Source of the DNA: Candidatus Avelusimicrobium vaccinum
GTDB taxonomy: Bacteria; Elusimicrobiota; Elusimicrobia; Elusimicrobiales; Elusimicrobiaceae
Reading direction: 5' to 3'
DNA length: 47,525 nt
Assembly (NCBI GenBank): GCA_902794895.1
Contig: CADBIY010000010.1
Location: 1 to 47,525 of the forward strand
Each line of letters begins with the position of its first letter. Within the stretch, counting starts at the first letter, position 1. Shown piece after piece: positions 4,067-36,403 of this stretch. The position numbers and the translations under genes are program-made. The notes beneath the pieces were generated by a model. It worked only from the letters and a program-made list of their open reading frames with translations. It was not told where the DNA came from and did not search any database.

Positions 4067-4079
4067 TTGGCAAACAAAT

Positions 4080-4482
4080 AGAAAAGGCCCTCTGCATTTA
4101 TTCAACACAGAGGACCTAGTTATACGGCCTTTCCATTTTCACTCTCCAACTCAGAGGTTTGTTCCACAGATCAGAACCTTATTCTAACTCCCCAGTACCA
4201 GTAATCAGTTGCGCATACCCATATCTCCGGAATTCCCGCCTATCCTCAAATAAGCGGCCCACAGCTTGTGAATATGCCTTCGCACCTCAATTCCCAGCAC
4301 TGAAGTACAAATAAAGAACTCTTATTTTCTGTTCAGAACCCAAGAAATATCACGTTCTTCACGTCTCTACTTCCTACATTCTCAACAGCCGCTCTTATCT
4401 TAGAAAAATGTCTAAACGTCATTAGGTTTAGATCCTCTGTCTTAAATAAGAGCAATTCTGCCTCACAACCTCTAACGAGGAT
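4080..4482 (-). ncRNA. Orphan structured RNA of about 400 nt, family not recognised
   Basis: The region has no plausible coding frame but looks like a stand-alone RNA gene. On the minus strand it starts about 7 bases after a consensus promoter and ends in a 9-bp hairpin (4087-4116) with a short T-rich tail. Predicted stems include CCTC/GAGG near the 5' end, GCTCTTAT/ATAAGAGC enclosing TCTAAAC/GTTTAGA, an 8-bp stem in CCGCTTAT..ATAGGCGG, and a pairing of GAGGTT near the 5' end with AACCTC near the 3' end. I looked for RNase P signatures (GAAAGUCC, ACAGA), the tmRNA tRNA-like end, the SRP tetraloop domain and a 6S-type bubble and found none. The neighbour is an XRE-type regulator transcribed in the same direction from further upstream. 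Confidence 0.65.
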
Positions 4483-4488
4483 ACTCTA

Positions 4489-4516
4489 AGTATAATGGAA
4501 AAGAAATAATTGTCAA
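4489..4516 (-). promoter_or_regulatory. Consensus sigma70 promoter of the 4080-4482 RNA
   Basis: On the minus strand TTGACA (4511-4516) and TATACT (4489-4494) are separated by 16 bp. The -35 is perfect and the -10 matches five of six bases. The predicted RNA start is near 4482. Confidence 0.85.
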
Positions 4517-4524
4517 GGGGGAAT

Positions 4525-5214
4525 TTAAAAAATCGTATTTGTAATTCGTCTGACGACGATCCCGATAGGTTTTGCTGAAGCCGATACAGACGTATATTCC
4601 TGCTCGTGTTTTTTCCATTTTAGACCGTTCGCCTGTTTTTTTATTTGTCGTACAAGGTATTTTTCTCCTTTGCGTACTAACATCGTGCAACCTGAAATCC
4701 ATTCAAAAGTCGGCGCGATAAATAAAACATCTTCTGCTTGGGGAGCCGGCAAATCGGTTTCCCCTGCGCGTATGAGAAATTGTGCTCCTTGCGCTGCCCG
4801 TCTGGGAAGTGCCCACCATTCGGACACTTGGGTTTCTTGATATAGCGGCAATTGGGGAGGTAAGTGAATAAAGAAGGGAAGCATCACGCTGTTAATAGTT
4901 TGAAAATTATATGATTTTCTGTCAGTAGAGTAAGTATTTTGCGCATTAATGGAATCGTGTAGCCCTTGGGTTTTTTCTATAAAGTTAGTTTGTATATAAG
5001 AAGACGGAATGAATAAACGAGATACTTCGTAGGTATCTAAATTGAAAATATGCTCAAGTTGGTTGAGGTACCCTTTGGATGGGTGGCGTTTTCCGGTTGC
5101 CCAAAGGGCTACGGTAGCGGTGGATACATGTAGTCTTTTTGCTAACTTTGCCTGTGCTCCGCGCAAAACACCATTATTCCATTTTTCTAGTTGTTTTTCA
5201 AATTTATTCATCAT
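4525..5214 (-). CDS. XRE/CI-like regulator with a degenerate S24 (LexA-fold) domain
   Basis: The 229-residue protein begins with a helix-turn-helix (about residues 19-58, ...KLAKRLHVSTATVALWATG...). After a linker, the C-terminal half (about 115-225) has the shape of an S24/LexA peptidase domain, including the late hydrophobic stretch PIGIVVRRI. The place of the usual catalytic serine motif (GDSM) reads GETD at 151-154, and the lysine of the dyad appears to be replaced in LVRQI (187-191), so self-cleavage looks lost. GGAG seven bases before the ATG at 5214 fixes the start. It is divergent from a promoter containing 9-bp iterated repeats, a likely operator. It may control the leader/transporter unit, the phage-derived cassette downstream, or both. 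The fold call is moderate and the targets are inferred. Confidence 0.75.
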   Translation of the reverse strand: MMNKFEKQLEKWNNGVLRGAQAKLAKRLHVSTATVALWATGKRHPSKGYLNQLEHIFNLDTYEVSRLFIPSSYIQTNFIEKTQGLHDSINAQNTYSTDRKSYNFQTINSVMLPFFIHLPPQLPLYQETQVSEWWALPRRAAQGAQFLIRAGETDLPAPQAEDVLFIAPTFEWISGCTMLVRKGEKYLVRQIKKQANGLKWKKHEQEYTSVSASAKPIGIVVRRITNTIF

Positions 5215-5259
5215 ATTTATTCTCCTAAAATATGGAAAATAGTTGGAACAAAAAAATAC

Positions 5260-5295
5260 TTGACAAATACTTACAATACTTACTATACTAACAAT
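5260..5295 (+). promoter_or_regulatory. Divergent promoter with iterated 9-bp operator-like repeats
   Basis: TTGACA (5260-5265) and TATACT (5284-5289) are 18 bp apart. Within and just after the spacer, three 9-bp units occur in direct order: AATACTTAC, AATACTTAC and TATACTAAC, followed by AATATGG. Such phased repeats over a promoter are typical of repressor sites. The regulator gene starts 46 bases away on the other strand. Confidence 0.7.
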
Positions 5296-5624
5296 ATGGA
5301 AGAGGAAATAAAGCCTCTTTCGCTTGCCGGCGTTTTCGTTTCCTATCAATGGCAAAAAGAATACGAAGAATCGGAGGGCCTTTCCTCAAGGCCAATGCTG
5401 CGCCTGTAGTATGTCTGCTCTGATACGCCGCCGCTACATCATTCTGCCAGGAATCATGTAGTGATATTGTAGCAAATAAAAGACCGTTTGGGTTAGCAAA
5501 GTTAATAGGTCCTCTACAATGGATTACAGGATCTTATCCATTAACTTTGCAACCCGGCGGGTTGTGTTGTATGTTATGACACGGAAAATAAGTAATTTAT
5601 TTTTTAATTATCTATAATATACTA
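5296..5624 (+). other. Structured 5' leader upstream of the YfcC-type gene
   Basis: No convincing gene lies here; a 37-codon frame beginning at 5296 sits right at the predicted transcript start and has no ribosome site. Three structures stand out. CTACAT/ATGTAG with an inner ATTC/GAAT forms a stem at 5434-5461. GGGTTAGCAAAGTTAAT (5490-5506) pairs with ATTAACTTTGCAACCC (5540-5555) over 16 bp with one bulge. AACCC (5551-5555) can instead pair with GGGTT (5559-5563). The last two are mutually exclusive, as in a switch. A TATAAT at 5613-5618 sits just before the next ATG, so a second, leaderless transcript is also possible. Confidence 0.5.
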
Positions 5625-7013
5625 ATGAAAAACAATTTTTCCTTAAATATTTACGGCCTTATATTTTCAATTTTAATATTAGTAGCCGCTTTAACTTATA
5701 TTCTTCCTGCCGGTCAATACGACACTTTTGAAAAAGATGGGCGTACCTATACTGTTGCAGGTTCTTATCACGCGGTCTCCTCCAATCCGCAAGGGCTGAG
5801 TGCCGTTTTGACGGCTCCTGCTAAAGGCTTTGAGAAATGTGCTGACATTATTGTGTTTATTTTTATTACAGGTGCGGTATTTACCATTTTAGAGAAAACC
5901 GGCACGGTGAACGCCTTTATTGTCGGAACAAGTTACTTATTTTCCCGGCGTGAAAAGTTAAAAAAATTTTTCATCCCGGTATCTATGCTTTTGTTTTCTT
6001 TAGGCGGTGCCGTATTTGGCATGGAAGAGGAGACATTAATTTTTATTCCGTTATTTATTCCGCTTGCACTTTCTTTGGGATATGATAGTGTAGTGGGGGT
6101 AAGTATTCCTTTTTTGGGGGCTTGGGTCGGCTTCGGTTCTGCCTTTATGAATCCGTTTACTGTCGGGATTTCCCAAGGGATCGCCCAATTACCGCTTTAT
6201 TCCGGAATGGGGTATCGGCTTATTGTGTGGGGAATTTGTACCGCGGTTGTGATTGGATTTGTGATGTGGTATGGTGAAAAAATTCGTAAAAATCCGTCAA
6301 AAAGTATTACTTATCACGCAGATAGAAAACGGTTGGAGAATCTAAAATTGGATAGTTTAACAAAGCCTGAATTTAAAACCTCTCACTGGATGATTGCATT
6401 TCTTTTTGCAGCGGGCATGTTGTTTTTAGTTTATGGGGTGGCAAAATTAGGATGGTATATTATTGAAATTTCAGGACTCTTTTTAGGAATTGGAATTGTA
6501 TGCGCATTGGTTGGACGGTTGCGCCTTCAGCAAACAACGGATGCAATTATTGACGGTGCCCGCAGTATGGTTAGTGTAGCCGTGATGTTGGCTTTGGCAC
6601 GCGGTATTGTCGTGATTGCGGGCGATGGCCGTATTTTAGACACTGTTTTATTTGCCATTACCAAAAGTATCGGAGGATTTCACCCGTTGCTGGCGGCGGA
6701 GGGGATGTTTTGGGCTCATTCATTTATTAATTTCTTTGTAGCCTCGGGTTCTGGTCAGGCAGTGCTTACCATGCCGGTCATGATTCCATTAAGTGATCTG
6801 ATTGGCATCAATCCGCAACTTTCTATTTTGGCATATCAATTTGGGGAAGGTTGGTCAAATGCCATTATCCCCACCGCTCCGGTTACTATGGCCGCCATTG
6901 GTATTGCCAAAATTCCATGGATAGAGTGGGCTAAATGGAATTTGCCTCTTCAAATTATCTTGGCCGTACTATCTATGCTTTTATTAATTCCTGCTTACTT
7001 AATGAATTGGTAA
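5625..7013 (+). CDS. yfcC: YfcC/DcuC-type membrane carrier
   Basis: The 462-residue protein is strongly hydrophobic, with about 12 membrane segments, and begins with a helix (about 8-28) followed by the PAGQYD motif typical of the YfcC family (pfam03606, C4-dicarboxylate anaerobic carrier group). Other conserved stretches include GMEEETLIFIPLFIPL (about 126-141) and the glycine-rich FVASGSGQAVLTMPVMIPL near residue 370. Members are inner-membrane carriers proposed to move dicarboxylates or basic amino acids, sometimes as antiporters; the substrate here is unknown. No Shine-Dalgarno sequence precedes the ATG and a TATAAT ends only six bases before it, so translation may be leaderless or depend on the structured leader upstream. 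Confidence 0.85.
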   Translation: MKNNFSLNIYGLIFSILILVAALTYILPAGQYDTFEKDGRTYTVAGSYHAVSSNPQGLSAVLTAPAKGFEKCADIIVFIFITGAVFTILEKTGTVNAFIVGTSYLFSRREKLKKFFIPVSMLLFSLGGAVFGMEEETLIFIPLFIPLALSLGYDSVVGVSIPFLGAWVGFGSAFMNPFTVGISQGIAQLPLYSGMGYRLIVWGICTAVVIGFVMWYGEKIRKNPSKSITYHADRKRLENLKLDSLTKPEFKTSHWMIAFLFAAGMLFLVYGVAKLGWYIIEISGLFLGIGIVCALVGRLRLQQTTDAIIDGARSMVSVAVMLALARGIVVIAGDGRILDTVLFAITKSIGGFHPLLAAEGMFWAHSFINFFVASGSGQAVLTMPVMIPLSDLIGINPQLSILAYQFGEGWSNAIIPTAPVTMAAIGIAKIPWIEWAKWNLPLQIILAVLSMLLLIPAYLMNW

Positions 7014-7065: not shown

Positions 7066-7389
7066 ATGTCTTCACGTTTAAAATTGGAAAACTTAATTTT
7101 TTACCGGGCTGCCTATTTAGATACCTTGGTAGAGGCAAATAATGGTTTTTTGGTGACCCGGTGTCCCGATCCCCTGTTGCGGGCATATATCTTGTTATAT
7201 AACCAATTTTTTGCATTAGAAAACAGACGGGAATTGGCGAGTGAACAAGAATCGGTTTGGAACCTGGAATTCCGTGGTAACGGGTTTTTTGCAAGCCCCT
7301 GTTTCTCTGCAGATTATCCGACTCAATTATTTTATGAAATTTATTTTAATTGCTTGTCGGCTTTAAAAAATAACTTGACAAAAAAATAA
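7066..7389 (+). CDS. Unknown 107-residue protein at the left edge of the phage cassette
   Basis: I do not recognise this protein. It is soluble, with mixed charge, and has many aromatic residues (LIFYRAAYLD, YILLYNQFF). There is no signal peptide, membrane segment or clear DNA-binding motif. The ribosome site is weak. The last codons overlap the -35 region of the strong promoter that opens the phage-derived operon. It could be a host gene or a small regulator belonging to that element. The length and clean frame favour a real gene, but the evidence is limited. Confidence 0.5.
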   Translation: MSSRLKLENLIFYRAAYLDTLVEANNGFLVTRCPDPLLRAYILLYNQFFALENRRELASEQESVWNLEFRGNGFFASPCFSADYPTQLFYEIYFNCLSALKNNLTKK

Positions 7390-7484: not shown

Positions 7485-7922
7485 ATGCCTAATTCTCCTA
7501 AGAGATACAAACGTGCTTCCAGCGCGTTTGCGTCGAAATCTTCTTTACGTTATCAACCGGAGTTTTGTGAACGATTGCTTCAGTTTTTTGATGTTTCTCC
7601 TTTTACTATTACCGAAGTTGCCAAAAAAGACGGTTCTATTAGTCTTGTTGAGACAGCCGCCGAATTGCCGACGTTTGCCGCATTTGCTAAACAGTTAGGA
7701 ACCACTTGTGAAGTGTTAAGCAATTGGGAGAAGACACACCCTGCTTTTCATGAAGCCGCGCAAAAGGCGAGAGATTTACAAAGTAATATCTTGATTCAAA
7801 ATAGTTTGCGTGGTAATTATTCGGCCTCCTTTGCGGTATTTACCGCTAAAAATTTATTGGGATGGAAAGACGGCAAAGAAGAGGGGGCCGCACAACAAAT
7901 TCAAATACGTTGGGAGAACTGA
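7485..7922 (+). CDS. Phage terminase small subunit (DNA-packaging recognition)
   Basis: The 145-residue protein has a basic N-terminus and a helix-turn-helix-like segment at about residues 55-85 (LPTFAAFAKQLGTTCEVLSNW). It ends with the pattern SASFAVFTAKNLLGWKD that is typical of small terminases of podo- and siphophages. Small terminases bind the packaging site on DNA and hand it to the large subunit. The stop is two bases before the large terminase ATG, so the two are co-translated. The ribosome site is weak. Its presence implies that some specific or headful packaging start was used by the ancestral phage; whether it still selects a site is unknown. Confidence 0.85.
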   Translation: MPNSPKRYKRASSAFASKSSLRYQPEFCERLLQFFDVSPFTITEVAKKDGSISLVETAAELPTFAAFAKQLGTTCEVLSNWEKTHPAFHEAAQKARDLQSNILIQNSLRGNYSASFAVFTAKNLLGWKDGKEEGAAQQIQIRWEN

Positions 7923-7924
7923 GA

Positions 7925-9232
7925 ATGAAAACGCAATCCGTGGTAATTCCATATAAACCTCGTGCTGTTCAGCAAACGATACATACGGCTTTGGAATCAC
8001 ACCGCTTTTGTGTGTTGGTTACGCACCGTCAACTTGGAAAAACCGTTTGTGCTATCAACCATTTGCTAAAAAAATCAATTCAAACCTCGCGTAAATATGC
8101 ACGTTATTTTTACGTTGCGCCCTTCTTAAAACAAGCCAAAATGATTGCGTGGGATTATTTAAAACGTTATAGTGCGCCTATCCCGGGAGTGCAAGTACAT
8201 GAAACAGAACTGTGTATTAAACTCCCCAATGGCTCTCGAATTTGGATTGCCGGGGCAGATAATCCGGATGCGCTGCGGGGAACCTACGCGGATGGGGTTG
8301 TGTTGGATGAATATGCCCAGATTAAGCCGGATGTTTTTACGGAAATTATCCGCCCTATGCTGCTTTCCCGCGAAGGATGGGCCGTTTTTATGGGGACCCC
8401 TAAAGGCCAAAATGCATTTTATGAATTATTTAATCGTGCACAAAAATTGGCAAAGCGTGATCCCTCCGGTTGGTGGACCGGGGTATTTCGGGCCGATGAA
8501 TCGGGGGTAATAACCGGTGAAGAACTTGCCCATATCCGGCAAGAAACTCCAGACCTGATTTTTCGTCAGGAATATTTATGCGATTTTACCGCCAGTGCGG
8601 AGAATATTTTAATTCCGATTGTGGATGTTCTGCAATCCTGTTCACGCAGTTATACCTCCGGCGATCTTCGCGGAAGTGCCAAAATTTTAGGGGTAGATCC
8701 CGCCCGTTTTGGAGATGACCGCAGCGTGATTTTCTTCCGCCAAGGCGTGAAGGCATTTGAGCCCATGGTGTTTAAGCGGCTGGATAATATGACCTTGGCC
8801 GGACACGTAGCCCGGCAAATTGAACAAACACGTCCGGACGGCGTTTTTATTGATGCCGGTTGCGGAGGAGGGGTCATTGATCGGTTAAGACAGTTGGGCT
8901 TTACGGTTACAGAAATAGCGTTTGGAGCAACGGCTTCCCAACCGGGGCAGTATGCCAATAAACGTGCTGAAATGTGGGGACTGATGGCGCAATGGATTAA
9001 AACCGTCGGGCAACTGCCTCCTTCAGCCGATTTAAAGGCGGATTTGACTCAAGTCGCATACGATTATGATGTTGCCGGGCGACTTCGTTTGGAATCAAAA
9101 GAAAAAATTAAAGCGCGTTGTGGAAAAAGCCCGGATTTGGCAGATGCGTTGGCTTTAACGTTTGCGTTACCTGTCGCAGTACGCAATGGGCATGGGATCG
9201 AATTTGCACGCAGTGAATATGAGATTATCTGA
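7925..9232 (+). CDS. Phage terminase large subunit (packaging ATPase/nuclease)
   Basis: The 435-residue protein has both expected domains. The ATPase domain shows a Walker A-type THRQLGKT at 33-40 and Walker B VVLDEY at 125-130, with the motif III-like GTPKG near 158. The RNase H-fold nuclease domain shows acidic residues D258 (LGVDPARFGDD), D310 (VFIDAGCGGG) and the late PDLADALAL motif near residue 415. All catalytic acids appear intact, so the enzyme looks functional. It powers DNA translocation into the procapsid and cuts the concatemer. The start at 7925 follows the small subunit stop; the longer frame upstream overlaps that gene and was rejected. It is of the Terminase_6 type by appearance. 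Confidence 0.93.
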   Translation: MKTQSVVIPYKPRAVQQTIHTALESHRFCVLVTHRQLGKTVCAINHLLKKSIQTSRKYARYFYVAPFLKQAKMIAWDYLKRYSAPIPGVQVHETELCIKLPNGSRIWIAGADNPDALRGTYADGVVLDEYAQIKPDVFTEIIRPMLLSREGWAVFMGTPKGQNAFYELFNRAQKLAKRDPSGWWTGVFRADESGVITGEELAHIRQETPDLIFRQEYLCDFTASAENILIPIVDVLQSCSRSYTSGDLRGSAKILGVDPARFGDDRSVIFFRQGVKAFEPMVFKRLDNMTLAGHVARQIEQTRPDGVFIDAGCGGGVIDRLRQLGFTVTEIAFGATASQPGQYANKRAEMWGLMAQWIKTVGQLPPSADLKADLTQVAYDYDVAGRLRLESKEKIKARCGKSPDLADALALTFALPVAVRNGHGIEFARSEYEII

Positions 9233-9255
9233 TCGACGTAAATTTAAAAAAATAC

Positions 9256-9284
9256 TTGACAAAATAGATTATATTTTGTATAAT
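9256..9284 (+). promoter_or_regulatory. Second perfect sigma70 promoter inside the cassette
   Basis: TTGACA (9256-9261) and TATAAT (9279-9284) are 17 bp apart. The upstream flank AATACTTGACAAA is shared with the promoter at 5260 and nearly with that at 7375. The transcript would run across the opposing small gene towards the portal gene. Confidence 0.85.
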
Positions 9285-9326
9285 TATATTATATTAGATA
9301 TAACTAATTTTCTTCTTTTATATATG

Positions 9327-9357
9327 TAAAAAAAACCGCCTGCTAGGCAAGCGGTTC
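9327..9357 (-). terminator. Terminator of the minus-strand small membrane gene
   Basis: AACCGC (9334-9339) pairs with GCGGTT (9351-9356). On the minus strand the stem is followed by a run of T. It lies just past the stop of the small gene. Confidence 0.75.
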
Positions 9358-9378
9358 TCTATCAAAAAATCCTTCTGT

Positions 9379-9552
9379 TTAGGCGCTCCACACCATTAAA
9401 CTCAGCGCGGCTACCAATAAAACAGTCAATAAACAAGTAATCCACCCGGCAGTACGTTTACTCATCTTCGGAAACATTTTCCGTGTAATTATATAAAATC
9501 CCGGTACAGCCATTAATACGACAAATAAGAAAATTACAAAAAGTCCCGTCAT
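9379..9552 (-). CDS. Small two-helix membrane protein, antisense within the phage cassette
   Basis: The 57-residue protein consists of a hydrophobic helix (about 3-22), a short basic loop (TRKMFPKMSKR) and a second helix (about 37-55). GGAGGG five bases before the ATG supports the start at 9552; the longer frame has no such site. It is the only minus-strand gene in the cassette, lies between large terminase and portal, and has its own terminator. Lone oppositely oriented genes in phage operons are often morons, such as superinfection-exclusion or toxin-like membrane peptides, but nothing in the sequence identifies the role. A host gene inserted here is also possible. Confidence 0.65.
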   Translation of the reverse strand: MTGLFVIFLFVVLMAVPGFYIITRKMFPKMSKRTAGWITCLLTVLLVAALSLMVWSA

Positions 9553-9621
9553 AATACCCTCCATTACTTTATAGTAGTAAATTTTTCTCACTTCTGCAGT
9601 TTTTCTTTTAATTACACTTTT

Positions 9622-11145
9622 ATGAAACATACACCAATTGATTATATGCGTCTGTATGACGAACTTAAAAACGGGCAGACTTCTTGGACGCCTGTTTGGA
9701 AAGAACTCAGCGCTTATTTAGCGCCTACACGTGGTTTCTTTGACGGGCAACAACCCGGACAAGGCCGCCGCATTGACCATAAAACATTGTTGGACTCCAA
9801 TCCCTGCTTAGCGGTAGAAATATTGGCCGCGGGCATGATGTCCGGCTTAACCAGTCCGGCGCGAAGTTGGTTTAATTTGAGTATTTCTCCGGCAGAAATC
9901 GAGGAAGCACCCGGTGCGCGGGAATGGATATTTGATGTAAAAAAATGTTTGGAAAAAACATTTGCCAAAAGTAATGTGTACGGCGTCTTGCATGGGTTTT
10001 ATCAAGAGATTGCTGTATTTGGCACTGCGGCCTTTTTGTTGGAAGAAGACCGTGAAAGAGGAATTTTCTGCCGGCCGTTTACGGTAGGGGAATATTGTCT
10101 GGGCGTGGATGAAAAAGGGAAAGTCAATCAATTTGCCCGCGGCTTTTTTATGACGGGCTCACAATTAAAAGAAACATTCGGCATGCAGGTACTTCCGCCG
10201 CAAATCCGTCAGGAAATCGAACGCGGAAATACAGCGCGTTTTTACCGGGTGTATCATATGATTTTTCCAAATCCTGCTTATACGCCGGATAAACAAGACT
10301 GTTTGCATATGCCTTTTAGTAGCGTGTATTTTATGGAAAAAAATCAGGTGCTTCGTCAAAGCGGATACCGAAGTTTCCCGGTGATTGCGGCGCGTTGGGA
10401 AGTGAAAAACAGTTCAGACGTTTATGGTAAAGGCCCGGGTTGGAAATGCCTGGGAGACGTGAAAATGTTACAAAAAATGCAAAAGACGAAATTAGTTGCA
10501 TTAGACAAAAGTACGAATCCGCCGGTAATGGTTTCTACCAGTGTGCAAGGAGAGGTTAATTTACTGCCGGGGGGAATTACCCGTTATAACGGATCCACCG
10601 ACGGGGCTGTCAAACCTGCCTATCAAGTGCAACCGGATTTGGCTGCGTTAGAAAATGCAATTCTTTCTGTCCGTGATACGATACGCTCCCAATTTTTTGC
10701 GGATATATTTTTAGCACTTTCTTCTCAAGATTATTCAAATAAAACAGCAGCGGAAGTGGCGGAGCGCCACCAGGAAAAAATGATTGTATTAGGGCCTGTA
10801 CTTGAACGGTTAAAAAACGAACTGTTAGATCCGTTAATTTCCAGGACGTTTGAGATCTTGGCACATCAGGGGCGGTTACCTGATCCGCCTCAAAGCATAC
10901 AAGGCCAATCGGTGCAGGTAGATTATATTTCTATGATTGCGCAAGCACAAAAAAGTACCGAAGTGTCGGCGTTGATACAAGGGGTTCAATATGCCTCTGC
11001 GCTTGCCCAAACCAAGCCGGAAATTTTGGAACAAGTTGATTATCAATGTGCGTTGGAAGAAGGATTGGAAGCCCTTGGAGTAGCCCCTGCGTTATTAAAA
11101 ACAAAACACACTGTTTCCGACGGAGACGGGCTTTCAAAAGAATAA
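9622..11145 (+). CDS. Podovirus portal (head-to-tail connecting) protein
   Basis: The 507-residue protein matches the head-tail connector family of T7-, epsilon15- and BPP-1-like phages (PF12236) in length and pattern. The N-terminal segment has LDSNPCLAVEILAAGMMSGL (about 56-75) followed by TSPARSWF, and later GKGPGW (about 271) and the helical SSQDYSNKTAAEVAER (about 371-386). Twelve copies form the ring at the capsid vertex through which DNA passes. The ribosome site is weak. The gene starts 70 bases from the divergent small membrane gene. No frameshift or truncation is seen. Confidence 0.92.
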   Translation: MKHTPIDYMRLYDELKNGQTSWTPVWKELSAYLAPTRGFFDGQQPGQGRRIDHKTLLDSNPCLAVEILAAGMMSGLTSPARSWFNLSISPAEIEEAPGAREWIFDVKKCLEKTFAKSNVYGVLHGFYQEIAVFGTAAFLLEEDRERGIFCRPFTVGEYCLGVDEKGKVNQFARGFFMTGSQLKETFGMQVLPPQIRQEIERGNTARFYRVYHMIFPNPAYTPDKQDCLHMPFSSVYFMEKNQVLRQSGYRSFPVIAARWEVKNSSDVYGKGPGWKCLGDVKMLQKMQKTKLVALDKSTNPPVMVSTSVQGEVNLLPGGITRYNGSTDGAVKPAYQVQPDLAALENAILSVRDTIRSQFFADIFLALSSQDYSNKTAAEVAERHQEKMIVLGPVLERLKNELLDPLISRTFEILAHQGRLPDPPQSIQGQSVQVDYISMIAQAQKSTEVSALIQGVQYASALAQTKPEILEQVDYQCALEEGLEALGVAPALLKTKHTVSDGDGLSKE

Positions 11146-11298
11146 AGAAAAATCCGTATGCGGACGCGTCCTTATAAGCGTTACGGTCCGCAACGGTGCG
11201 AAAGGAAGTAACGGGGCCGGGCCCGCCCTTTCGGATTCTGTCATAGACCGGGATAAACAAGCGTCTAAAATTAACGAACGTTGTTTATCTTTTGGTAA

Positions 11299-11328
11299 GG
11301 GAAAAGTTTTCCCGGTAAAACTTTTCCC
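11299..11328. other. Perfect 12-bp hairpin between portal and Bbp19-like gene
   Basis: GGGAAAAGTTTT (11299-11310) and AAAACTTTTCCC (11317-11328) form a perfect stem with loop CCCGGT, ending 11 bases before the next start codon. No T-tract follows. It may be an RNA processing or translation-control element. The rest of the 194-base gap holds no evident gene. Confidence 0.6.
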
Positions 11329-11339
11329 ATGCTAATCTT

Positions 11340-11648
11340 ATGCAAGAAAAACAACTAAAAAAACGTAATAACTATGATTTACAAACCGTTTTAAAAACGG
11401 TACAAGGCCGCCGTTTGCTCTGGCGGATTTTACAGGCGGCACGTGTGCATGAGCACGCATTTGTGCCCGGGGATGCCGGCGCAACGGCTTTTCATTGCGG
11501 ACAGCAGAGTATCGGGTTATTCCTTTTACGCGAAATTGAAGCCGCTTCCCCGGGTGCATATATGCAAATGCGGGGGGAATATATGTCGGAAGTTACGTCT
11601 AAACAACATGAAATTGACCAACAAACGGAGGAAATGACGCATGAATGA
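11340..11648 (+). CDS. Bbp19-family phage protein
   Basis: The 102-residue protein shows the pattern of the Bbp19-like family: an early DLQTVLKTVQGRRLLWRIL segment (about 13-31), a CGQQSIGLFLLREI segment (about 53-66) and an acidic tail. In Bordetella phage BPP-1 the homologue lies between the portal and scaffold genes, exactly as here. Its role is not well defined; a head-assembly function is inferred from position. The stop overlaps the scaffold start by eight bases. Confidence 0.75.
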   Translation: MQEKQLKKRNNYDLQTVLKTVQGRRLLWRILQAARVHEHAFVPGDAGATAFHCGQQSIGLFLLREIEAASPGAYMQMRGEYMSEVTSKQHEIDQQTEEMTHE

Positions 11649-12246
11649 GCAGGCGCAAGTAGCGGCTTGTAATGAAGCCGAAAATAACCTTTTACAAGAA
11701 GTGCAAATTCCGGCGGAAAAAACGGAAAATAGGGGCCCAAAAACACCCGTTGATTTGCGGGACTCTATCACGGAATCGGCAACAGAACAACAAGCACAAG
11801 TATTATATCCGGACGTAAAGTGGCCGGAAGATATGTTGACAGAACCGGAGCAGGTAAATGCATTTAAAACACTGGCCGGGGAACTTAAATTATCTTCTGA
11901 GCAAGTACAACAATTGGTGGATTTTGAAAGAAAGGCTGCCCAGCATAATGCTGCTGTTATGGCTGAGGAAAAGCGGGAAATAATTTCCCGCTGGGCTCAA
12001 GAAACCAAAAAAATGTACGGGGCTAAATTAGAAGAAGAAATTTCCTTCGCTTTGCGTGCCGCCAATACATTTGGAGGGCCGGATTTACGTGCCCTATTGG
12101 AAGATACCGGGCTTGGAAACCATCCCGTCATTATTCGTACATTAAGCGGGATTGGTCGCAGTATCAGTGAAGATGCTTGTCCCGGAGGGCAGCCGTCTGC
12201 CCCACAGGATAAAACCTTTGCTGAAGCATTGTACGGAAAACGATAA
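11641..12246 (+). CDS. Phage scaffold / capsid-assembly protein
   Basis: The 201-residue protein is acidic and largely helical, with a disordered N-terminus and a central coiled-coil region (about 85-140). The GNHPVIIRTLSGIGRSISED segment (about 159-178) is typical of scaffold proteins in podo- and siphophages. Scaffold proteins fill the procapsid and leave or are degraded before packaging. The start lies within the end of the previous gene, and the capsid gene follows after a clear AAGGAG site. The assignment rests on composition, the C-terminal motif and its place immediately before the capsid gene. Confidence 0.8.
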   Translation: MNEQAQVAACNEAENNLLQEVQIPAEKTENRGPKTPVDLRDSITESATEQQAQVLYPDVKWPEDMLTEPEQVNAFKTLAGELKLSSEQVQQLVDFERKAAQHNAAVMAEEKREIISRWAQETKKMYGAKLEEEISFALRAANTFGGPDLRALLEDTGLGNHPVIIRTLSGIGRSISEDACPGGQPSAPQDKTFAEALYGKR

Positions 12247-12262
12247 TTAAGGAGACTTATAT

Positions 12263-13240
12263 ATGGCAATTATTGCTGACAAACAGTATAGTTTAATTGA
12301 CTATGCAAAACAATTTGATCCGTCCGGTCAAGAACTGGCTATTGCGGAAGTACTCAGCCAATCCAATGATATTATTGGAGATGCTCTTGTGTGCGAAAGT
12401 TCGCTTGATAGCGGCCATGAATATGCCGTTCGTACCGGTATTCCCGAAGGAACCTGGAGACGGGCCTATCAAGGCATTGAACCGGCTAAAGCCACTACAA
12501 AAGTGGTGGTGGAATCTTACGGTACCTTGTCCGCTTATTCGGTAGTAGATAAATTAGTGGCCGAAAAAGGCGGGCATGTCGAAGCCGTACGTACCGGACA
12601 ATCGCGTGCAATTATCGCCGGTATGTCCAACACAATGGCCAGTAATTTAATTTACGGCAATGTGGGTACGAATCCGGAACGTTTTACCGGGCTTGCCGCG
12701 CGTTATTGTGAATTGTCCGGTGCGGAAAGTTCCCGCAATGTTATTGATGGGGGCAGTGTTACCGCCAACAAAAACTCGTCTATTTACTTAGTTGTGTGGG
12801 ATACCGATAAAGTATTTACGTTCTTTCCCAAAGGATCTAAAGCAGGGATTCAACGCGTAGATCACGGCCTGGTCAATCATGTGGATGCTTCCGGTAATGA
12901 GTATCCGGCATATAAAGAATATTTTGAATGGAAACTTGGCTTAGCCGTGCAAGATTGGCGCTTCGCCGGACGTATTTGCAATATTGATACGACGAATATT
13001 CCGTCCGACTTAATTGACAAAATGTGTGAATTGGAAGAACGCATTCAAAGCCTTTCCATGGGCAAACCGGTTTGGTATATGAACCGTACCGTCAAGGCGG
13101 CTTTGCGTAAACTGACTAGCAACCGCACGAATGTTCAATATACACCGGACCAAATTACATCCAGACCACTCATGACGTTTAATGAAATTCCGGTACATAT
13201 CTGTGATGCTATTACCGATACGGAAGCGTTAGTCGCTTAG
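12263..13240 (+). CDS. Major capsid protein (epsilon15 GP7 / BPP-1 Bbp17 type)
   Basis: The 325-residue protein resembles the GP7-type major capsid family (HK97 fold). It starts with a helical ASLIDYAK-like segment (YSLIDYAKQFDPSG), then GTWRRAYQGI near 74, VESYGTLSAYSVVDK near 94, the SNLIYGN motif near 127 and a C-terminal YMNRTVKAALRKL segment near 273. No N-terminal delta domain is present, as expected when scaffold is a separate gene. AAGGAG precedes the ATG and the cement gene follows nine bases after the stop. The complete frame suggests that particles could still be built. Confidence 0.9.
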   Translation: MAIIADKQYSLIDYAKQFDPSGQELAIAEVLSQSNDIIGDALVCESSLDSGHEYAVRTGIPEGTWRRAYQGIEPAKATTKVVVESYGTLSAYSVVDKLVAEKGGHVEAVRTGQSRAIIAGMSNTMASNLIYGNVGTNPERFTGLAARYCELSGAESSRNVIDGGSVTANKNSSIYLVVWDTDKVFTFFPKGSKAGIQRVDHGLVNHVDASGNEYPAYKEYFEWKLGLAVQDWRFAGRICNIDTTNIPSDLIDKMCELEERIQSLSMGKPVWYMNRTVKAALRKLTSNRTNVQYTPDQITSRPLMTFNEIPVHICDAITDTEALVA

Positions 13241-13248
13241 GAGGAAAT

Positions 13249-13635
13249 ATGTTGTTAGATCAAAATACGGTTCTTTCCGATAAACAAACAATTACTACCA
13301 GTGCAGCCTCTACCCATACGATAGATGCAACGGCAGCCGGCAATGTAGTACCCGGCGGTTTATTTGCCGTCTTGCGTAATGAGGCCGCCTTTGCCGGTGC
13401 GACCAGTGTTGCCTTTTCTTTGCAAACTTCTGATCAAGATTCATTTGCCACATTGGACACTTTAGTATCGGCCACGTTTACAGCAGCGCAGTTGGCAAAT
13501 GCCAATCAACTGTTGCTAGCGTTGCCTATCCCGGCCAAAATAAAACGCTATATTCGGGCTTATTATACCGTAACAGGGACTGCCACTGCCGGTTCCGTTA
13601 CTTGCTTCTTAACGGACCTGGTAGACCAAAAATAG
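13249..13635 (+). CDS. Bbp16-like capsid cement (stabilisation) protein
   Basis: The 128-residue protein is a small beta-rich protein dominated by alternating Thr, Ala, Val and Ser, without charged helices. It sits directly after the capsid gene, as the BPP-1 Bbp16 cement gene does, and shares the ending pattern IPAKIKRYIRAYYTVTG...TCFLTD. Cement proteins bind the outside of the shell at symmetry axes. GGAGG precedes the ATG. Confidence 0.8.
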   Translation: MLLDQNTVLSDKQTITTSAASTHTIDATAAGNVVPGGLFAVLRNEAAFAGATSVAFSLQTSDQDSFATLDTLVSATFTAAQLANANQLLLALPIPAKIKRYIRAYYTVTGTATAGSVTCFLTDLVDQK

Positions 13636-14112
13636 CCCCCTGAAAAACTAGCCGTCCGCGGGGAAAAAATATTCCTGCTTCTGGGAATCCTAGCGGACCG
13701 CAATCCCGGAGCCGGGGAATTGGCATCTCCGGCTCCGTAAACACTCCTTTATTAAGGCCTGTATCAATTGCTGCCTTGAGAATTGCTTTTATGGCTTAGG
13801 TTTTATCCAAATAAAACTAAAAATGAAAATTAGGCCCGGTTTTGGCTAAAATAGGTTAAAAATGAAGCAGAATAAGCACTTTTCTAGCATTTTTGTCTAT
13901 TAATATACTAAAAACCTTAATTTCTTTGCAAAATATCTTCCTGTAAACTATAAAAATATCATAATTAAAATAATATATAAATTTAAAAATCATTAAAAAA
14001 TAAGTATTTTTAAAAATACATCTAATATTTTATAAATAAATTATAAAAATAAAAGAATATCAAAATTTAAAATATATTAAAAAATAATAATAATTTTAAA
14101 AGGAGATTATGC
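13636..14112. other. 477-base gap: GC-rich hairpins, then an extremely AT-rich tract
   Basis: No gene is seen. GTCCGC (13654-13659) pairs with GCGGAC (13693-13698), and CGGAGCCGG (13707-13715) pairs perfectly with CCGGCTCCG (13729-13737); the second may terminate the head-gene transcript. From about 13780 to 14100 the sequence is nearly all A and T with many A- and T-tracts, unlike anything else in the cassette. A promoter for the tail genes, a packaging or nucleoid-protein site, or a relic of deleted genes are all possible. Confidence 0.6.
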
Positions 14113-14697
14113 ATGGTAACAAAATTAAATATTTGTAATTTGGCTTTAGCCCAATTAGGCCAATCACCATTAACGGCATTAAATGAAGATACTGAGCGGG
14201 CGCGAAGACTGAATCTATTTTATGAACCTGTTCGGGATGAACTCCTTCGGACACATAATTGGCGTTTTGCCAGTGCAGAAAATGCGCTCATTCGGGTAGA
14301 TATTCCTGCTCCTGCACCTGATTTTGTTTATAAATATCCGGCTCAGGCTTTATTTGTTCGCCGCGTATTTCATGCAAATGCAGTGCAACAGTCGCTTCCT
14401 TTTAGCGAGTTTTTTGATGAATCTACCCAACAACGTGTGTTGCGGGTACCTGCTGCTGCAGCCAGGGCTCAATATACGCGTCGTATTACAGATGAAAGCA
14501 TTTTTGATCCGGGGTTTGTAAAGGCTTTTTCTTTAGCATTGGCTTGTGATCTGGCGGTTACTTTAACGGCAGATTCTCAATTAGCGGGGCAATTATGGAC
14601 AAAATACCAACTAGCCCTGGAAGAAGCCCGGCGGAGTAATATGATGGAAAACTTTCAACAGATTTCTTCGCATGATGCGTTTACGGAGGTGCGCTAA
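14113..14697 (+). CDS. Podovirus tail adaptor (T7 gp11-like tubular protein A)
   Basis: The 194-residue protein begins with LNICNLALAQLGQSPLTAL and then DETERARRLNLFYEPVRDELL-like sequence, which is the standard opening of T7 gp11-type tail tubular proteins and related adaptors. Such proteins form a twelve-fold ring under the portal. The central part is beta-rich and the C-terminal helix ends in EEARRSNMMEN, also typical. AGGAG precedes two overlapping ATGs; the one at 14113 is in frame. The stop overlaps the nozzle start as TAATG. Confidence 0.85.
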   Translation: MVTKLNICNLALAQLGQSPLTALNEDTERARRLNLFYEPVRDELLRTHNWRFASAENALIRVDIPAPAPDFVYKYPAQALFVRRVFHANAVQQSLPFSEFFDESTQQRVLRVPAAAARAQYTRRITDESIFDPGFVKAFSLALACDLAVTLTADSQLAGQLWTKYQLALEEARRSNMMENFQQISSHDAFTEVR

Positions 14698-17294
14698 TGG
14701 CTTTTTCACATTTACAACCTTCTTTTAGCGGCGGTGAGATTAGTCCCTCTTTGCAAGCACGGACCGACAGTCCTGCTTATAATACGTGGTTGCATACGGC
14801 ACGCAATTTCTATGTACATCCCCAGGGAGGTGCCTCCAACCGTCCGGGAACGTTATTTGTTGCAAAGGGGAAATTTGCGGATAAAGCCTGTCGTGTGATT
14901 CCTTTTGTTTGCTCGGAACGAGAGGCGTATGTATTGGAATTGGGAGAACACTATATACGCTTTTACACGCCGGCCGGACGGGTCGTAAACGATCAAGGGA
15001 ATGTTTACGAGTTGACGACGGTATTTTCGGCGGCAGAACTTGCTTCTGTACAATATGCCCAATATCAACAAATGATTATTTTTACACATCCGGGTCATGC
15101 TCCGCAACGCTTGACACGTATCGCCCCCGGGCGTTTTTCATTGGAAACACTACCGGTATGTTTCGGCCCTTTTCAACCGTTGAATACCGACTCCGGAAAA
15201 AAATTGCGCGTGCGTCAATTCCAGCAGACGGTAACAACGGAAGGGGTTGCGGCCAGTGTATCGTTTCTACCGACCGTCGACGCGAATTATTTTGTATGGG
15301 GATATTTCAACGGAGAACATTTTTTTTATGCGCATGATTATGGATTGGATTTAAACTTTCTGGTCAGCGAATTTAACCGTGTTTACGGAGGTGCAGGCTT
15401 TACTGCGTATAATTTAGGCGGCGTGCTGAAAATAGATTCTCCGCAAGCCACCGGAGGCGATTGCAATGGAATGACTCTCACCCTGGAATACAGAAATAGT
15501 TTTACCGCTCCGGCGGTATTTACAATATCACAATCGCTAGGCGGAGGTTCGAATGCCGGAGAAATCCCGGTAGAAGGTGGCGACCAATTTTTATTGGAAA
15601 GTGATTTTGATTTATTTCAACCGGGGCATGTGGGTGCTCTTTTTAGTGTTACGCATACGGTGGAAAATCCCTGCCAACAAGGAACGCTAGGATATGATGG
15701 TGTTTCTAAAGTGCTTCAAACGGGAAGCGATTTCCAACTGATTCTTAGCGGTTCTTGGACCGGGCAAATTGTATTGGAAAAATCAACCGATCTGGGAATT
15801 ACTTGGGAAACTTACCGTACGTTTTCCCGCCAGGACGGAGAGGACCCTATTTTAATTCAGGAGGTACTGGAAGATACCGGCGGACTTTATTACATTCGGT
15901 TGCGTGGTCTGAATATTACCGCAGAGGCCGGATACGAACTTTCCGCTCAATCCTTTGTGCAGGAAGGAATTGTGCGGGTAACCGGTTATGTGAATGCAAG
16001 GCAGGCAGAGGTGTCTGTGGAGCAACCGTTTGGATCGGCCGATTGGACCAGTAAATGGGCGGCAGGATCGTTTTGTGATAAAAACGGATTTCCCGCTTGT
16101 GTATTTTTCTATCAAGACCGATTAGGTTTTGGCGGCACTTTGGCCGAACCGCAAACTTTGTGGTTTTCGAAGACCGGAAACTATACGCATTTTGGACACG
16201 CACGTCACGCAGCCACGGATGATAGTTTGAGCCTGCATCTTTCCGGCAAGCAATTAAACACGATTCGTTCGGTTGTTGTTGCGGGCCGGCTTTTAGTGTT
16301 TACGGCCGGTAGCGAATGGAGTATTGCGTGCAATGGTATTTTTGCACTGGAAAATTTGGAAATTACCCAACAAGGCGAACGCGGCGCGGGGGCGGTATCC
16401 CCTGTGATGGTGGGAAACCATGTGTTGTTTGTGCAGGCGCGTGCAGGTACTTTGCGTGATTTTTATTATGACTATTCCTCCGCTTCATTTACCGGGGAGG
16501 ATTTGACCTTATGTGCCAAACATTTATTTTTTAATCAGGAAATCAAAGATTTGTGTTATCAGCAGGAGCCGGATCATTTAATTTGGTGTGTATTGTCGAA
16601 TGGACAATTGGCATCACTTACTTATTTGGCAGAACAAGAGGTTTGCGCGTGGACACATCATGATACACAAGGGGCTTTTCGAAGTGTATGCACCATTCCC
16701 AATAACGGTTTTGATGAAGTATGGATGAGTGTAGAGCGGGAAAATGGCTGGAATATTGAAAAAATGAGCCGCCGGCTGGCCAGTAAAGACCCAGCCGCAC
16801 AGATATTTGTGGATGCGGCTGTCTATGTGAAATCCGAGGAGGGAATGAGTGTGCTATCAGGGTTGGAACATTTAGAAGGACAAACCGTAACAGTTCTTGC
16901 GGAGGGAAATATTTATCCCGAACAAGCGGTTACACAAGGTCAAATTTCTCTCTCCCGTCCTATGAAAGAAATTGTCGTAGGGTTGGGATATACTTCAGAG
17001 ATTAAAACATTGCCATTGTCCTCCGAATATATTTTGGGAAATAAATTGCGGCGGTTTGTATCTGCCTGTGTGCGGTTATTGGATTCCCGCGGAGGAGAAA
17101 TAGGCGTTTTGCCGGAAGAAACGGAACCGATTCCTTTTCCTGCCTGTGCGGCTTATAACGGGTCCGTCCCTTTACAAAGTGGTTATTTTCCGGTTTTGTT
17201 ACGTTCCAATCATGAATTGGGGGCTGGAATCTGGATTCGGCAACAAGCACCGTTTCCCTTTACGTTGATTTCTCTTTATGTACAAGCCGCCTAG
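14697..17294 (+). CDS. Large tail nozzle protein (podovirus tubular protein B-like)
   Basis: At 865 residues this is the largest cassette protein. It opens with the conserved pattern FSGGEISPSLQARTD and then ARNFYVHPQGGASNRPGT (about 35-52), which marks the nozzle/tail-tubular family in epsilon15-, BPP-1- and T7-like phages. The rest is almost entirely beta-strand, consistent with stacked propeller-like domains forming the distal tail tube. It follows the adaptor gene with a four-base overlap, in the order seen in podoviruses. No gap or frameshift is seen. Confidence 0.85.
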   Translation: MAFSHLQPSFSGGEISPSLQARTDSPAYNTWLHTARNFYVHPQGGASNRPGTLFVAKGKFADKACRVIPFVCSEREAYVLELGEHYIRFYTPAGRVVNDQGNVYELTTVFSAAELASVQYAQYQQMIIFTHPGHAPQRLTRIAPGRFSLETLPVCFGPFQPLNTDSGKKLRVRQFQQTVTTEGVAASVSFLPTVDANYFVWGYFNGEHFFYAHDYGLDLNFLVSEFNRVYGGAGFTAYNLGGVLKIDSPQATGGDCNGMTLTLEYRNSFTAPAVFTISQSLGGGSNAGEIPVEGGDQFLLESDFDLFQPGHVGALFSVTHTVENPCQQGTLGYDGVSKVLQTGSDFQLILSGSWTGQIVLEKSTDLGITWETYRTFSRQDGEDPILIQEVLEDTGGLYYIRLRGLNITAEAGYELSAQSFVQEGIVRVTGYVNARQAEVSVEQPFGSADWTSKWAAGSFCDKNGFPACVFFYQDRLGFGGTLAEPQTLWFSKTGNYTHFGHARHAATDDSLSLHLSGKQLNTIRSVVVAGRLLVFTAGSEWSIACNGIFALENLEITQQGERGAGAVSPVMVGNHVLFVQARAGTLRDFYYDYSSASFTGEDLTLCAKHLFFNQEIKDLCYQQEPDHLIWCVLSNGQLASLTYLAEQEVCAWTHHDTQGAFRSVCTIPNNGFDEVWMSVERENGWNIEKMSRRLASKDPAAQIFVDAAVYVKSEEGMSVLSGLEHLEGQTVTVLAEGNIYPEQAVTQGQISLSRPMKEIVVGLGYTSEIKTLPLSSEYILGNKLRRFVSACVRLLDSRGGEIGVLPEETEPIPFPACAAYNGSVPLQSGYFPVLLRSNHELGAGIWIRQQAPFPFTLISLYVQAA

Positions 17295-17302
17295 GGGGAC
17301 TT

Positions 17303-17797
17303 ATGAAAAAGTTTAATTGGATGTATCGCTTTGAGGTACGGACCGCGTACCCGGGAGATGGGAAAAAATTAGCCCGGCAATTACGCCCGAAAGACCGGGC
17401 TGAATTAGCCGCTACACACCCCGGGCAGAATCCGGGGCAATGCTTGGAAAAATTTATTTCTGTATCGGATGTAAGCATTTGTGTACTCTATCGGGGAAAA
17501 CCTTTATTGCTAGCCGGTATCTACCGGGATGATACTTTTTCCACCCCGGCTTTAGTATGGATGCTCACCGGTAAAGAAGTAGACAAACATCCGGTTAGTT
17601 TTGTGAAAATGGTTTCTTTCTTCCTAACACAGTGGCACGCCTATTACGGGGAACTGTTTAACTATATTGATTTTCGGTATTGGCAGGCCTGTAAACTGGC
17701 TAAAAAACTAGGGGCTGTTTTGGAAGACGACGGAACTTATTATCAGGGAAAACTGTTTTTAAAATGTATATTTAGGAGGAATTTATGGGGGGAATAG
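17303..17797 (+). CDS. T7 gp13-like (GNAT-fold) virion-associated protein
   Basis: The 164-residue protein matches the Gp13/DUF2833 pattern: an N-terminal VRTAYPGDGKKLARQLRP segment, a Cys-Leu-Glu helix, the ICVLYRGKPLLLAGI strand pair (about 57-71) and an aromatic tail. T7 gp13 has an acetyltransferase-like fold and is needed for internal-core assembly. GGGG lies a few bases before the ATG. The end overlaps the next gene by 13 bases. Confidence 0.75.
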   Translation: MKKFNWMYRFEVRTAYPGDGKKLARQLRPKDRAELAATHPGQNPGQCLEKFISVSDVSICVLYRGKPLLLAGIYRDDTFSTPALVWMLTGKEVDKHPVSFVKMVSFFLTQWHAYYGELFNYIDFRYWQACKLAKKLGAVLEDDGTYYQGKLFLKCIFRRNLWGE

Positions 17798-18273
17798 TCA
17801 CCGGCGGAGGCGTTAAAATCGCCTCTGCATTAAATGAAATTGCACAACAAAAAAAGATGAAAAATTCATATCGCTCTTTAGTGAATCAAGCAGATAAACA
17901 GGCGCGTGAATTAAAATTGGAACAACAGGAAGAACAGATTAATTTATTACGCACGGCAGCGGAAAAAAACCGGATGCGTTTGAAGCAATATTATCAGCAA
18001 ATAAGCGACCGGAAGGCTTCTTTGGCTGCCGCAGGGTTGGATGCTAACTCAGCAACGGTTCGGCAATTATTGCAGCAACATTCTTTGGAAAATAGTTTAG
18101 CCGTACAAGAAAACCAGCAGGAATTGGAAGATTCCTTGGAGGCGAACCGCCAGCACGCGGCCCAACGTATCCGTCAATTACAGGAAAAAGTACAAAGCGG
18201 CCGTCAGTTATACCGTCAATCACGTAACGGTTGGAAATTGGGTGCTAAATTCTTTTCCTTTTTATCCCGGTGA
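17785..18273 (+). CDS. Internal-virion/core protein, coiled coil (T7 gp14-like)
   Basis: The 162-residue protein starts with a small Gly/Ala-rich segment and then forms a long coiled coil rich in Gln, Glu, Lys and Arg (about 20-145), containing KASLAAAGLDANSATVRQLL (about 73-92). That motif, with a helix after an Ala/Gly turn, is common in internal core proteins such as T7 gp14 and P22-type ejection proteins. These proteins are ejected into the cell envelope to make a DNA channel. The ribosome site GGAGG is strong. The assignment depends on position and composition. Confidence 0.65.
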   Translation: MGGIVTGGGVKIASALNEIAQQKKMKNSYRSLVNQADKQARELKLEQQEEQINLLRTAAEKNRMRLKQYYQQISDRKASLAAAGLDANSATVRQLLQQHSLENSLAVQENQQELEDSLEANRQHAAQRIRQLQEKVQSGRQLYRQSRNGWKLGAKFFSFLSR

Positions 18274-19490
18274 TGATTATGTTACAAATACCAACTTCTA
18301 CATTTATTAAGCAACAAGCAGTACAACAACGTGCTCCGGTGTTATTGCCGACGACGCACGTACAAGTAATGAAAGCCCGTCAGCAATTAAAACACATGAT
18401 GCTAGAATGTAAGACAACGGAGGAAATGTTACAACGTTTGTCTAATTGGCAAGGTACGCAAGAGACCGTTCTCCACGAATCTGAGGAATCAGCGGCGGAT
18501 TTTGTCGTCTGGGAACAAGTGTTACAGGCTAAAGAAAAACAGAACCAAAAAAGATATTTTCAAAATCAATTACAGGAAGAATTTGATTTGATTATCGAGG
18601 TGGGTTCGCACGTAGAAACCAGCGAACAACTGAGAGACTATCTGGCGAAACAGATACCGGCTTATGTAAATCATTGGCAGAAATATACAAAAGGAAGTGC
18701 AAAAGAGAAGAATCAACAGGCCGAAAACTTAAAATCCCAAACGCTGCAAGCCGCATTATTGCGCGCCATCTGTCATGAAAATTTAACGTTGGCAAGTGAA
18801 TTATTAACGAGTGAAAAAAATATCCTGCCGGAGGATTTTATTCATGCGTGTAGTGCAAAGTTGAACTGGATTTTTGCCAAACAGGAATCTGACAAATACT
18901 GGGAAGAAGCCACGCAAAAAAATCCGCAAAATCTTACACAGGCGGCCCGGTATGCACGTGATCTGAATAATGAAAAAAATGAAGTTTTGCATCGACTGAT
19001 TGAGGATATGATTTATGCCAAAGAACAATCGGTTTTGTGCGAACAATATAAACAACGTGCGTTATTGGTATCAGCGCTTTACACGCTTTCTTCAAGAGAG
19101 GCCCTGCGCTTGCTTCACGAACAGACGGATTTATCGTCTAATGATTTAGAACAGTATTATCAAATGGCAAAAGATTTAGATAATCCGGCAAAACCGCATA
19201 CGGCAGAATCATTTATCAAATTATATTTTACAGGAAATACCGGAGATATTTTTCGCGCTTATAAACAAAAACAACTATCCGCACAAGATGTATTCCGGTT
19301 GCTGGAACAATATTATCTGCGTCTCTGCGGAAAACAAAATCTTGAAATGAACATCCGTTGCAAAAAAATTGCCCATGCGGGTGAAAAACTAGAGTTTCCC
19401 CAAGAACTCATCATGCAAACCCAATATGAATTACTGAGTGCAGATGATCCCTCGGTTGAGTGGGGTCGTATTGAAAATTTAATCAAATAG
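18273..19490 (+). CDS. Probable internal-virion (ejection) protein, all-helical
   Basis: The protein is about 405 residues, almost entirely helical, and rich in Gln, Glu and Lys. No enzymatic motif is visible; in particular there is no lytic transglycosylase glutamate motif of the T7 gp16 kind. Its position after two internal-core-like genes and before the fibre gene suggests the last ejection protein, in a shorter form than T7 gp15 or gp16. The start is taken at the ATG overlapping the previous stop (TGATG); a GTG three bases earlier and an ATG six bases later are alternatives. The family is not recognised. Confidence 0.55.
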   Translation: MIMLQIPTSTFIKQQAVQQRAPVLLPTTHVQVMKARQQLKHMMLECKTTEEMLQRLSNWQGTQETVLHESEESAADFVVWEQVLQAKEKQNQKRYFQNQLQEEFDLIIEVGSHVETSEQLRDYLAKQIPAYVNHWQKYTKGSAKEKNQQAENLKSQTLQAALLRAICHENLTLASELLTSEKNILPEDFIHACSAKLNWIFAKQESDKYWEEATQKNPQNLTQAARYARDLNNEKNEVLHRLIEDMIYAKEQSVLCEQYKQRALLVSALYTLSSREALRLLHEQTDLSSNDLEQYYQMAKDLDNPAKPHTAESFIKLYFTGNTGDIFRAYKQKQLSAQDVFRLLEQYYLRLCGKQNLEMNIRCKKIAHAGEKLEFPQELIMQTQYELLSADDPSVEWGRIENLIK

Positions 19491-19498
19491 GAGTTTTT

Positions 19499-21208: not shown

Positions 21209-21217
21209 GGGGAATTT

Positions 21218-22034: not shown

Positions 22035-22035
22035 T

Positions 22036-34388: not shown

Positions 34389-34441
34389 ATTCTGTAAAAT
34401 GTGGGCGTGTAAATTTTTGCCCAAGGGAGAAAATGTCAGTG

Positions 34442-34969: not shown

Positions 34970-34981
34970 GGAGAAAATCAG

Positions 34982-35485: not shown

Positions 35486-35495
35486 GGAGAAAATT

Positions 35496-36386: not shown

Positions 36387-36403
36387 TTTTAGGAGGCTTT
36401 CAA

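Follow-up and report, generated by a model that had tools for sequence, protein, structure and literature searches.

Large structured RNAs encoded at phage-derived loci are already known as a kind from GOLLD and ROOL (PMC12286853). GOLLD is often longer than 800 nt and the ROOL RNA which has been studied is 659 nt; both are often found near tRNA islands, in phages and prophages (PMC12286853). The locus described here lies in a stretch of 47,525 nucleotides from Candidatus Avelusimicrobium vaccinum (contig CADBIY010000010.1), in the following called the window, and is built around an RNA which we call RNA-A. It resembles GOLLD and ROOL in being large and highly structured, in its orphan function and in its association with phage genes (PMC12286853). 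It differs from them in that it is about 400 nt, is core to one genus, is accompanied by a repressor gene and by RNA-B, another structured RNA, carries a micro-ORF at its end and matches no Rfam model.

The tisB/istR-1 system of E. coli, which is LexA-controlled, shares with our locus a LexA-type repressor, divergent transcripts and, in many genomes, a small hydrophobic peptide behind a structured leader. The locus departs from it by having no detectable antisense complementarity, by having two large covarying RNAs and the repressor gene inside the locus, and by lacking the peptide in the window and in clade g3. In a lambda-like lysogeny region, too, a repressor of CI/LexA fold adjoins a divergent promoter overlaid by operator-like repeats, where a cluster of virion genes ends. 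Unlike in lambda, we identified no Cro-like gene opposing the repressor, the PHROGs scans gave no integrase or replication match in the cluster, structured RNAs are the products on both sides, and repressors of the window's clade have lost the self-cleavage site. Gene transfer agents such as RcGTA (reviewed in PMC11841831) resemble the neighbouring gene cluster in being vertically inherited phage-derived structural clusters with lysis genes and possibly unlinked regulators. The cluster differs from the known ones in being a podovirus-like set in Elusimicrobiota with an RNA-rich control locus; particles that package host DNA would be a prediction here. In the literature searched no paper came up that connects Elusimicrobiota with gene transfer agents.

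The arrangement of RNA-A, a gene for a repressor of LexA/CI fold and the divergent RNA-B is kept in at least 60 of the 66 genomes of the genus (GTDB Avelusimicrobium/UBA1436-type Elusimicrobiaceae; genomes from the rumen, the rectum and the gut of chickens). In this way one repressor is tied, in nearly every species of a widespread gut genus, to two covarying RNA families which Rfam lacks, and the locus draws attention to a podovirus-like cluster that Elusimicrobiota have kept by vertical descent. We know of no counterpart to a terminal micro-ORF combined with a divergent RNA pair around a LexA-descended repressor. The reading towards which we lean, with modest confidence and from sequence comparison, is that RNA-A is a regulatory RNA of the phage-derived element.

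The original prediction was of an orphan structured RNA of about 400 nt, suggested to be abundant and transcribed on the minus strand from a TTGACA-16-TATACT promoter. This promoter is found at 4489..4516(-), with the -35 hexamer TTGACA at 4516-4511(-), a spacer of 16 nt and the -10 hexamer TATACT at 4494-4489(-), which together give 11 of 12 matches to the consensus. A lone match of this quality is weak by itself (11 such sites were found against 7.1±2.7 in shuffles), and it is the conservation in the homologues which is decisive: the spacing is 16 nt in all 60 homologous loci where a -35 was found, and the -10 is TATACT in 59 of 61. With its ends placed from promoter and terminator, RNA-A spans 4078..4483(-). 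The minimum free energy of these 406 nt is -154 kcal/mol compared to -103.8±5.3 for dinucleotide shuffles (z -9.5), none of 100 shuffles being as good, which bears out the many strong stems that had been noticed. The most conserved core, CAGAAAATAAGAGTTCTTT at 4313..4331(-), pairs through its 3' part with the strand UUCUUAACUG about 150 nt downstream, forming helices 2 and 3. A terminal hairpin had been expected as well and is present; its stem is of 14 pairs and not of 9. It extends over 4117-4085(-), is followed by the U-rich tail TTTTCTATTTG, and together they make up an intrinsic terminator (4075..4117(-)), whose stem is helix 9 of the consensus with 97.4% of cells paired. We infer transcription, presumably constitutive, from these signals, and RNA-A is almost certainly a conserved, transcribed structured RNA.

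It should be noted that the promoters of RNA-A and RNA-B (window 4480-4494 and 5284-5295) both have TATACT and not TATAAT. A similar AGTAT/AATAT stretch often follows TATACT in both, and the two promoters may share a repressor site.

Using BLAST and nhmmer, RNA-A was found in 17 genomes of the genus in a form which can be aligned from end to end. A covariance model of its core (R1) matches in 50 of the 66 genomes; it was built from one clade, and diverged clades are missed. The consensus for the window's clade (30 sequences) has 58 pairs, 37 of which show changes on both sides. Standard pairs occupy 94.8% of the cells compared to 83.0±0.5% after shuffling, the covariation score is 0.492 compared to 0.258, and pairing falls to 41-50% when the partners are slid. 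With a phylogeny-aware null 7 pairs are significant in the window's clade and 2-3 in other sets. An unrestricted scan of all 56 dereplicated RNA-A sequences with no given structure yielded zero pairs below E 0.05, probably because the deep clades align poorly; significance appears once the analysis is restricted to the structure and to one clade. Homologues thus occur across the genus, with compensatory base changes beyond both the shuffled and the slid controls, as expected of a structured RNA under selection. At the curated cut-offs of Rfam the sole match in the whole window is a tRNA. Permissive scans of the RNA-A stretch gave chance-level, sub-threshold matches only, and scans of eight further loci at E<=0.05 gave nothing above threshold. 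RNA-A therefore keeps the orphan status first given to it, and RNA-A and RNA-B are two RNA families new to Rfam.

The regulator next to RNA-A, which the original prediction called phage-like, is encoded at 4525..5214(-). The protein of about 225 amino acids consists of an XRE helix-turn-helix and a degenerate S24/LexA-like domain. An AlphaFold2 model (pLDDT 87) gave LexA and the lambda repressor as structural matches, and the protein thus combines the helix-turn-helix with the S24/LexA fold as members of the LexA/CI repressor family do. The gene is present in 63 of 66 genomes; in every intact locus it ends just upstream of the RNA-A promoter and separates RNA-A from RNA-B. The window's protein no longer has the Ala-Gly cleavage site with its Ser-Lys dyad, and neither do the repressors of clades g1 and g2. 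Repressors of clade g3 and of one further locus (L123) keep a VPAGYP-type cleavage site, the GDSM serine and the IKRI lysine, and the two g3 repressors scanned score 50-51 bits for Peptidase_S24. Since this early-branching clade has both the A-G/Ser/Lys autoproteolysis motif and the Peptidase_S24 match, the locus descends from an inducible phage repressor. The missing cleavage site and serine in the window would fit a loss of damage-induced self-cleavage during domestication. Paralogues of the repressor (L225-L236) are found elsewhere in several genomes and in sister genera, where they stand without RNA-A or RNA-B matches.

Between the repressor gene and RNA-B is a near-invariant element, TTAGTATAG-TAAGTATTG-TTAGCATTTGTCAAG in minus-strand reading (5259..5292(+)), which is a putative operator of the repressor. 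It consists of tandem repeats of about 9 bp lying over the RNA-B promoter (TTGACA at 5260-5265, TATACT at 5284-5289).

RNA-B, the second conserved structured RNA, is found at 5293..5566(+), divergent from the repressor gene. It would start from the promoter under the tandem repeats and be about 290 nt long; the fold has a z of -4.96. Its consensus from 29 sequences has 50 pairs, 30 with changes on both sides, standard pairs in 88.8% of cells compared to 80.2±0.5% in shuffled alignments and a covariation score of 0.368 compared to 0.206, so that RNA-B too has compensatory changes of the kind seen in structured RNAs under selection. Its covariance model (R2) matches in 62 of 66 genomes and in 35 of the 36 of good quality, mostly as a single copy some 1.2 kb from RNA-A. 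In the remaining genera of the order one weak match was seen, in a sister genus (G114); the score is low, the repressor is absent and from the sequence context we judged it a chance match. That RNA-B might be a tmRNA-like tag or encode a protein was also considered and rejected, since the frame GCAAAUAAA... is broken in two loci (L007 and L018).

At a fixed distance 3' of RNA-B a hydrophobic ORF of 20-45 amino acids, for example MDILLRVVLTLLLAVAVWGFASEWYHMK, is found in 35 of 58 loci (17/18 in clade g2, 18/33 in g1 and 0/7 in g3), and there is none in the window. Searches of these micropeptides against Pfam and PHROGs gave no significant match. In clade g2 (L099, L105, L117) RNA-B has a long stem whose 3' strand could alternatively fold on itself as ACUAAC-UCU-GUUAGU followed by a U-run. 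This alternative hairpin sits directly before the AUG of the micropeptide and is a possible switch.

The micropeptide, the LexA-like repressor and the divergent arrangement are what a type I toxin-antitoxin system similar to tisB/istR-1 would have. This model postulates that RNA-B is the leader of a membrane peptide of about 28 amino acids under control of the repressor, and that RNA-A silences it. RNA-A is, however, no more complementary to its own RNA-B than to those of mismatched genomes. In g1 crude full-length duplex energies are -171 for native and -168 for non-native combinations and recurrent complementary stretches number 7 in both, on which an antisense pairing of the two was rejected; in g2 there is one weak native excess, which does not covary. 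The peptide is absent from the window and from all 7 testable g3 loci though both RNAs persist there, and in one genome (G060) RNA-A survives without RNA-B. To our knowledge the known type I antitoxins are also far smaller than RNA-A. We consider a toxin-antitoxin function unlikely, and retain a regulatory role of RNA-A in the phage-derived element as the preferred reading.

The element itself is seen at 7485..22439(+), where PHROGs matches delineate a podovirus-like virion gene cluster of about 15 kb whose order is conserved in other genomes. It contains TerS, TerL, portal, protease/scaffold, major head protein, tail tubular proteins A and B, internal virion protein, tail fibre, endolysin and an Rz-like spanin; several small ORFs gave no match at all, and the PHROGs scans of 7485-22439 detected virion genes without replication or integration genes, as in gene transfer agents. 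TerL orthologues are present in 58 of 66 genomes at 64-81% identity with no internal stops; the nearest viral contig is at 53% identity. The TerL tree follows that of UvrA (Mantel r 0.85, p 0.0005, 10 of 18 splits shared), and dN/dS is 0.04-0.10 in the pairs where it could be measured. The structural genes, as represented by TerL, are thus vertically inherited under purifying selection, as also described for gene transfer agents, and therefore the cluster is probably a domesticated phage or a relative of gene transfer agents. In many genomes the cluster is unlinked, being about 72 kb distant from the RNA locus or on a different contig, and its gene order is kept there too. The RNA locus appears to be the control end of the virion cluster, which is a candidate gene transfer agent. 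The major head protein (L238, L240, L241, L244) is 85-93% identical to that of the window in genomes whose TerL is only 66-74% identical, an unusually strong constraint.

Because large structured RNAs here adjoin virion genes, and because GOLLD and ROOL, which are large phage-borne RNAs, form cages (PMC12286853), a model can be set up in which RNA-A and/or RNA-B are inside the particle or the packaging motor, or form cages of the GOLLD/ROOL type. RNA-A persists, however, in genomes where TerL was not detected (G030 and G060) and where the cluster is unlinked, and in Rfam neither GOLLD, ROOL nor any other phage RNA is matched. Covariance models found neither RNA on viral contigs with a related TerL or beside the repressor paralogues; pattern searches for true phages carrying RNA-A or RNA-B gave no matches in IMG/VR and none of note in the phage collection. 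A particle-associated RNA is therefore distinctly unlikely.

A control function of RNA-A need not be confined to the element. In G060 an RNA-A with promoter, micro-ORF (MEKAIS*) and terminator adjoins dcuC (L155 3250-2900(-)), and the repressor, RNA-B and TerL were looked for in this genome and not found, making it a natural deletion. As RNA-A here outlasts both the repressor and RNA-B, it may have a role outside the element, for which this genome is the strongest argument. Which gene lies downstream of RNA-A depends on the clade, and it often runs in the opposite direction, as the ABC transporter gene at 2230-4017(+) does in the window; since this gene is not conserved no cis target of RNA-A is visible, and no trans target was found.

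The region had originally been described as gene-free. This holds apart from a conserved ORF of six codons near the 3' end of RNA-A, AUG GAA AGG CCG UAU AAC UAG (MERPYN*) at 4116..4136(-), which is preceded by a Shine-Dalgarno-like GGAGAG at 4142..4147(-) and whose stop codon abuts the terminator stem. In 60 of 61 loci, from all three clades, a Shine-Dalgarno-like stretch precedes an AUG which is followed by 4-5 codons and a stop codon ending only a few nucleotides from the stem. At random anchors in the same loci an AUG frame of 5-6 codons with a stop occurs in 1.1%, and in 0.4% when a Shine-Dalgarno-like stretch is included. The peptide drifts (MERPYN in the window, elsewhere MEESTR, MNMSAN, MNECT and MEKAIS) while frame and stop are maintained; UGA, UAG and UAA are all represented, and an in-frame deletion has removed one codon in two loci (L124 and L137). 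The region of the micro-ORF is unpaired in the consensus structure. We conclude that it is very probably a real ORF and, as we infer from its conservation, translated. Lying against the terminator it is a clean feature, accessible to point changes in a laboratory strain.

In nearly all loci the stop codon is placed directly at the terminator stem, which is the geometry of ribosome-mediated attenuation, and it could be hypothesized that a ribosome at the stop of this leader peptide blocks the terminator and allows read-through into the next gene. That gene, however, varies between clades and often lies on the opposite strand, as in the window, which makes an attenuator improbable. The conserved AUG, frame, length and stop with the Shine-Dalgarno-like stretch upstream could also mean that RNA-A is mainly a minigene, producing a signal peptide of 5-6 amino acids or drawing tRNA and ribosomes into futile rounds; since the peptide sequence drifts, and since a covarying body of 340 nt would be superfluous for a minigene, we give this very little weight. 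The size, promoter strength and genus-wide presence of RNA-A might suggest a housekeeping RNA that has diverged, be it RNase P, tmRNA, 6S or SRP RNA. This can practically be dismissed: RNA-A has no Rfam match, and a genome-wide search for RNase P and tmRNA located both on other contigs with normal scores (217.6 bits on C21 and 124.3 bits on C2), in keeping with the original prediction, which could assign RNA-A to neither of these two.

The regulatory reading of RNA-A can be formulated as a model for the working of the locus. RNA-A would be the non-protein product of a control locus which is inherited vertically and belongs to a domesticated element of podovirus-like type. The LexA/CI-type repressor most likely binds the tandem repeats and represses the divergent RNA-B promoter. 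RNA-A itself most likely acts as a regulatory RNA which engages ribosomes. Its transcription would begin at the fixed promoter just behind the repressor gene and end at the strong terminator, giving a folded body of about 340 nt followed by an open ribosome-binding site and a frame of 5-6 codons. A ribosome on the micro-ORF would sit flush against the terminator hairpin, and translation could thereby set the state or the stability of the RNA-A 3' end. We offer ribosome occupancy at this end as a working step only tentatively. The target of RNA-A would presumably be the expression of the phage-derived genes or the response of the cell to them. More speculative still is the proposal that RNA-A represents a new class of bacterial RNA, a folded body which carries a ribosome-docking micro-ORF against its own terminator and is governed by the state of the ribosome. 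Partnered by RNA-B and the repressor of LexA descent, such an RNA would run an element akin to a gene transfer agent throughout the genus.

Between RNA-B and the phage-derived genes the window has, as do some of the other genomes only, a gene for a DcuC-family transporter (5625..7013(+)), in which a TATAAT-like sequence is found directly before the start codon, so that its message is possibly leaderless. It is followed by F0 (7066..7389(+)), a protein of 107 amino acids without known family, whose gene in 49 of 61 loci is the next one after RNA-B or dcuC. A tRNA-Thr gene (23071-23143(-)) lies beside ftsK where the virion cluster ends on the right, and is a possible relic of the original attachment site. 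Further along the window, at 33927-36892, there are tandem type IV pilin-like genes with prepilin N-termini.
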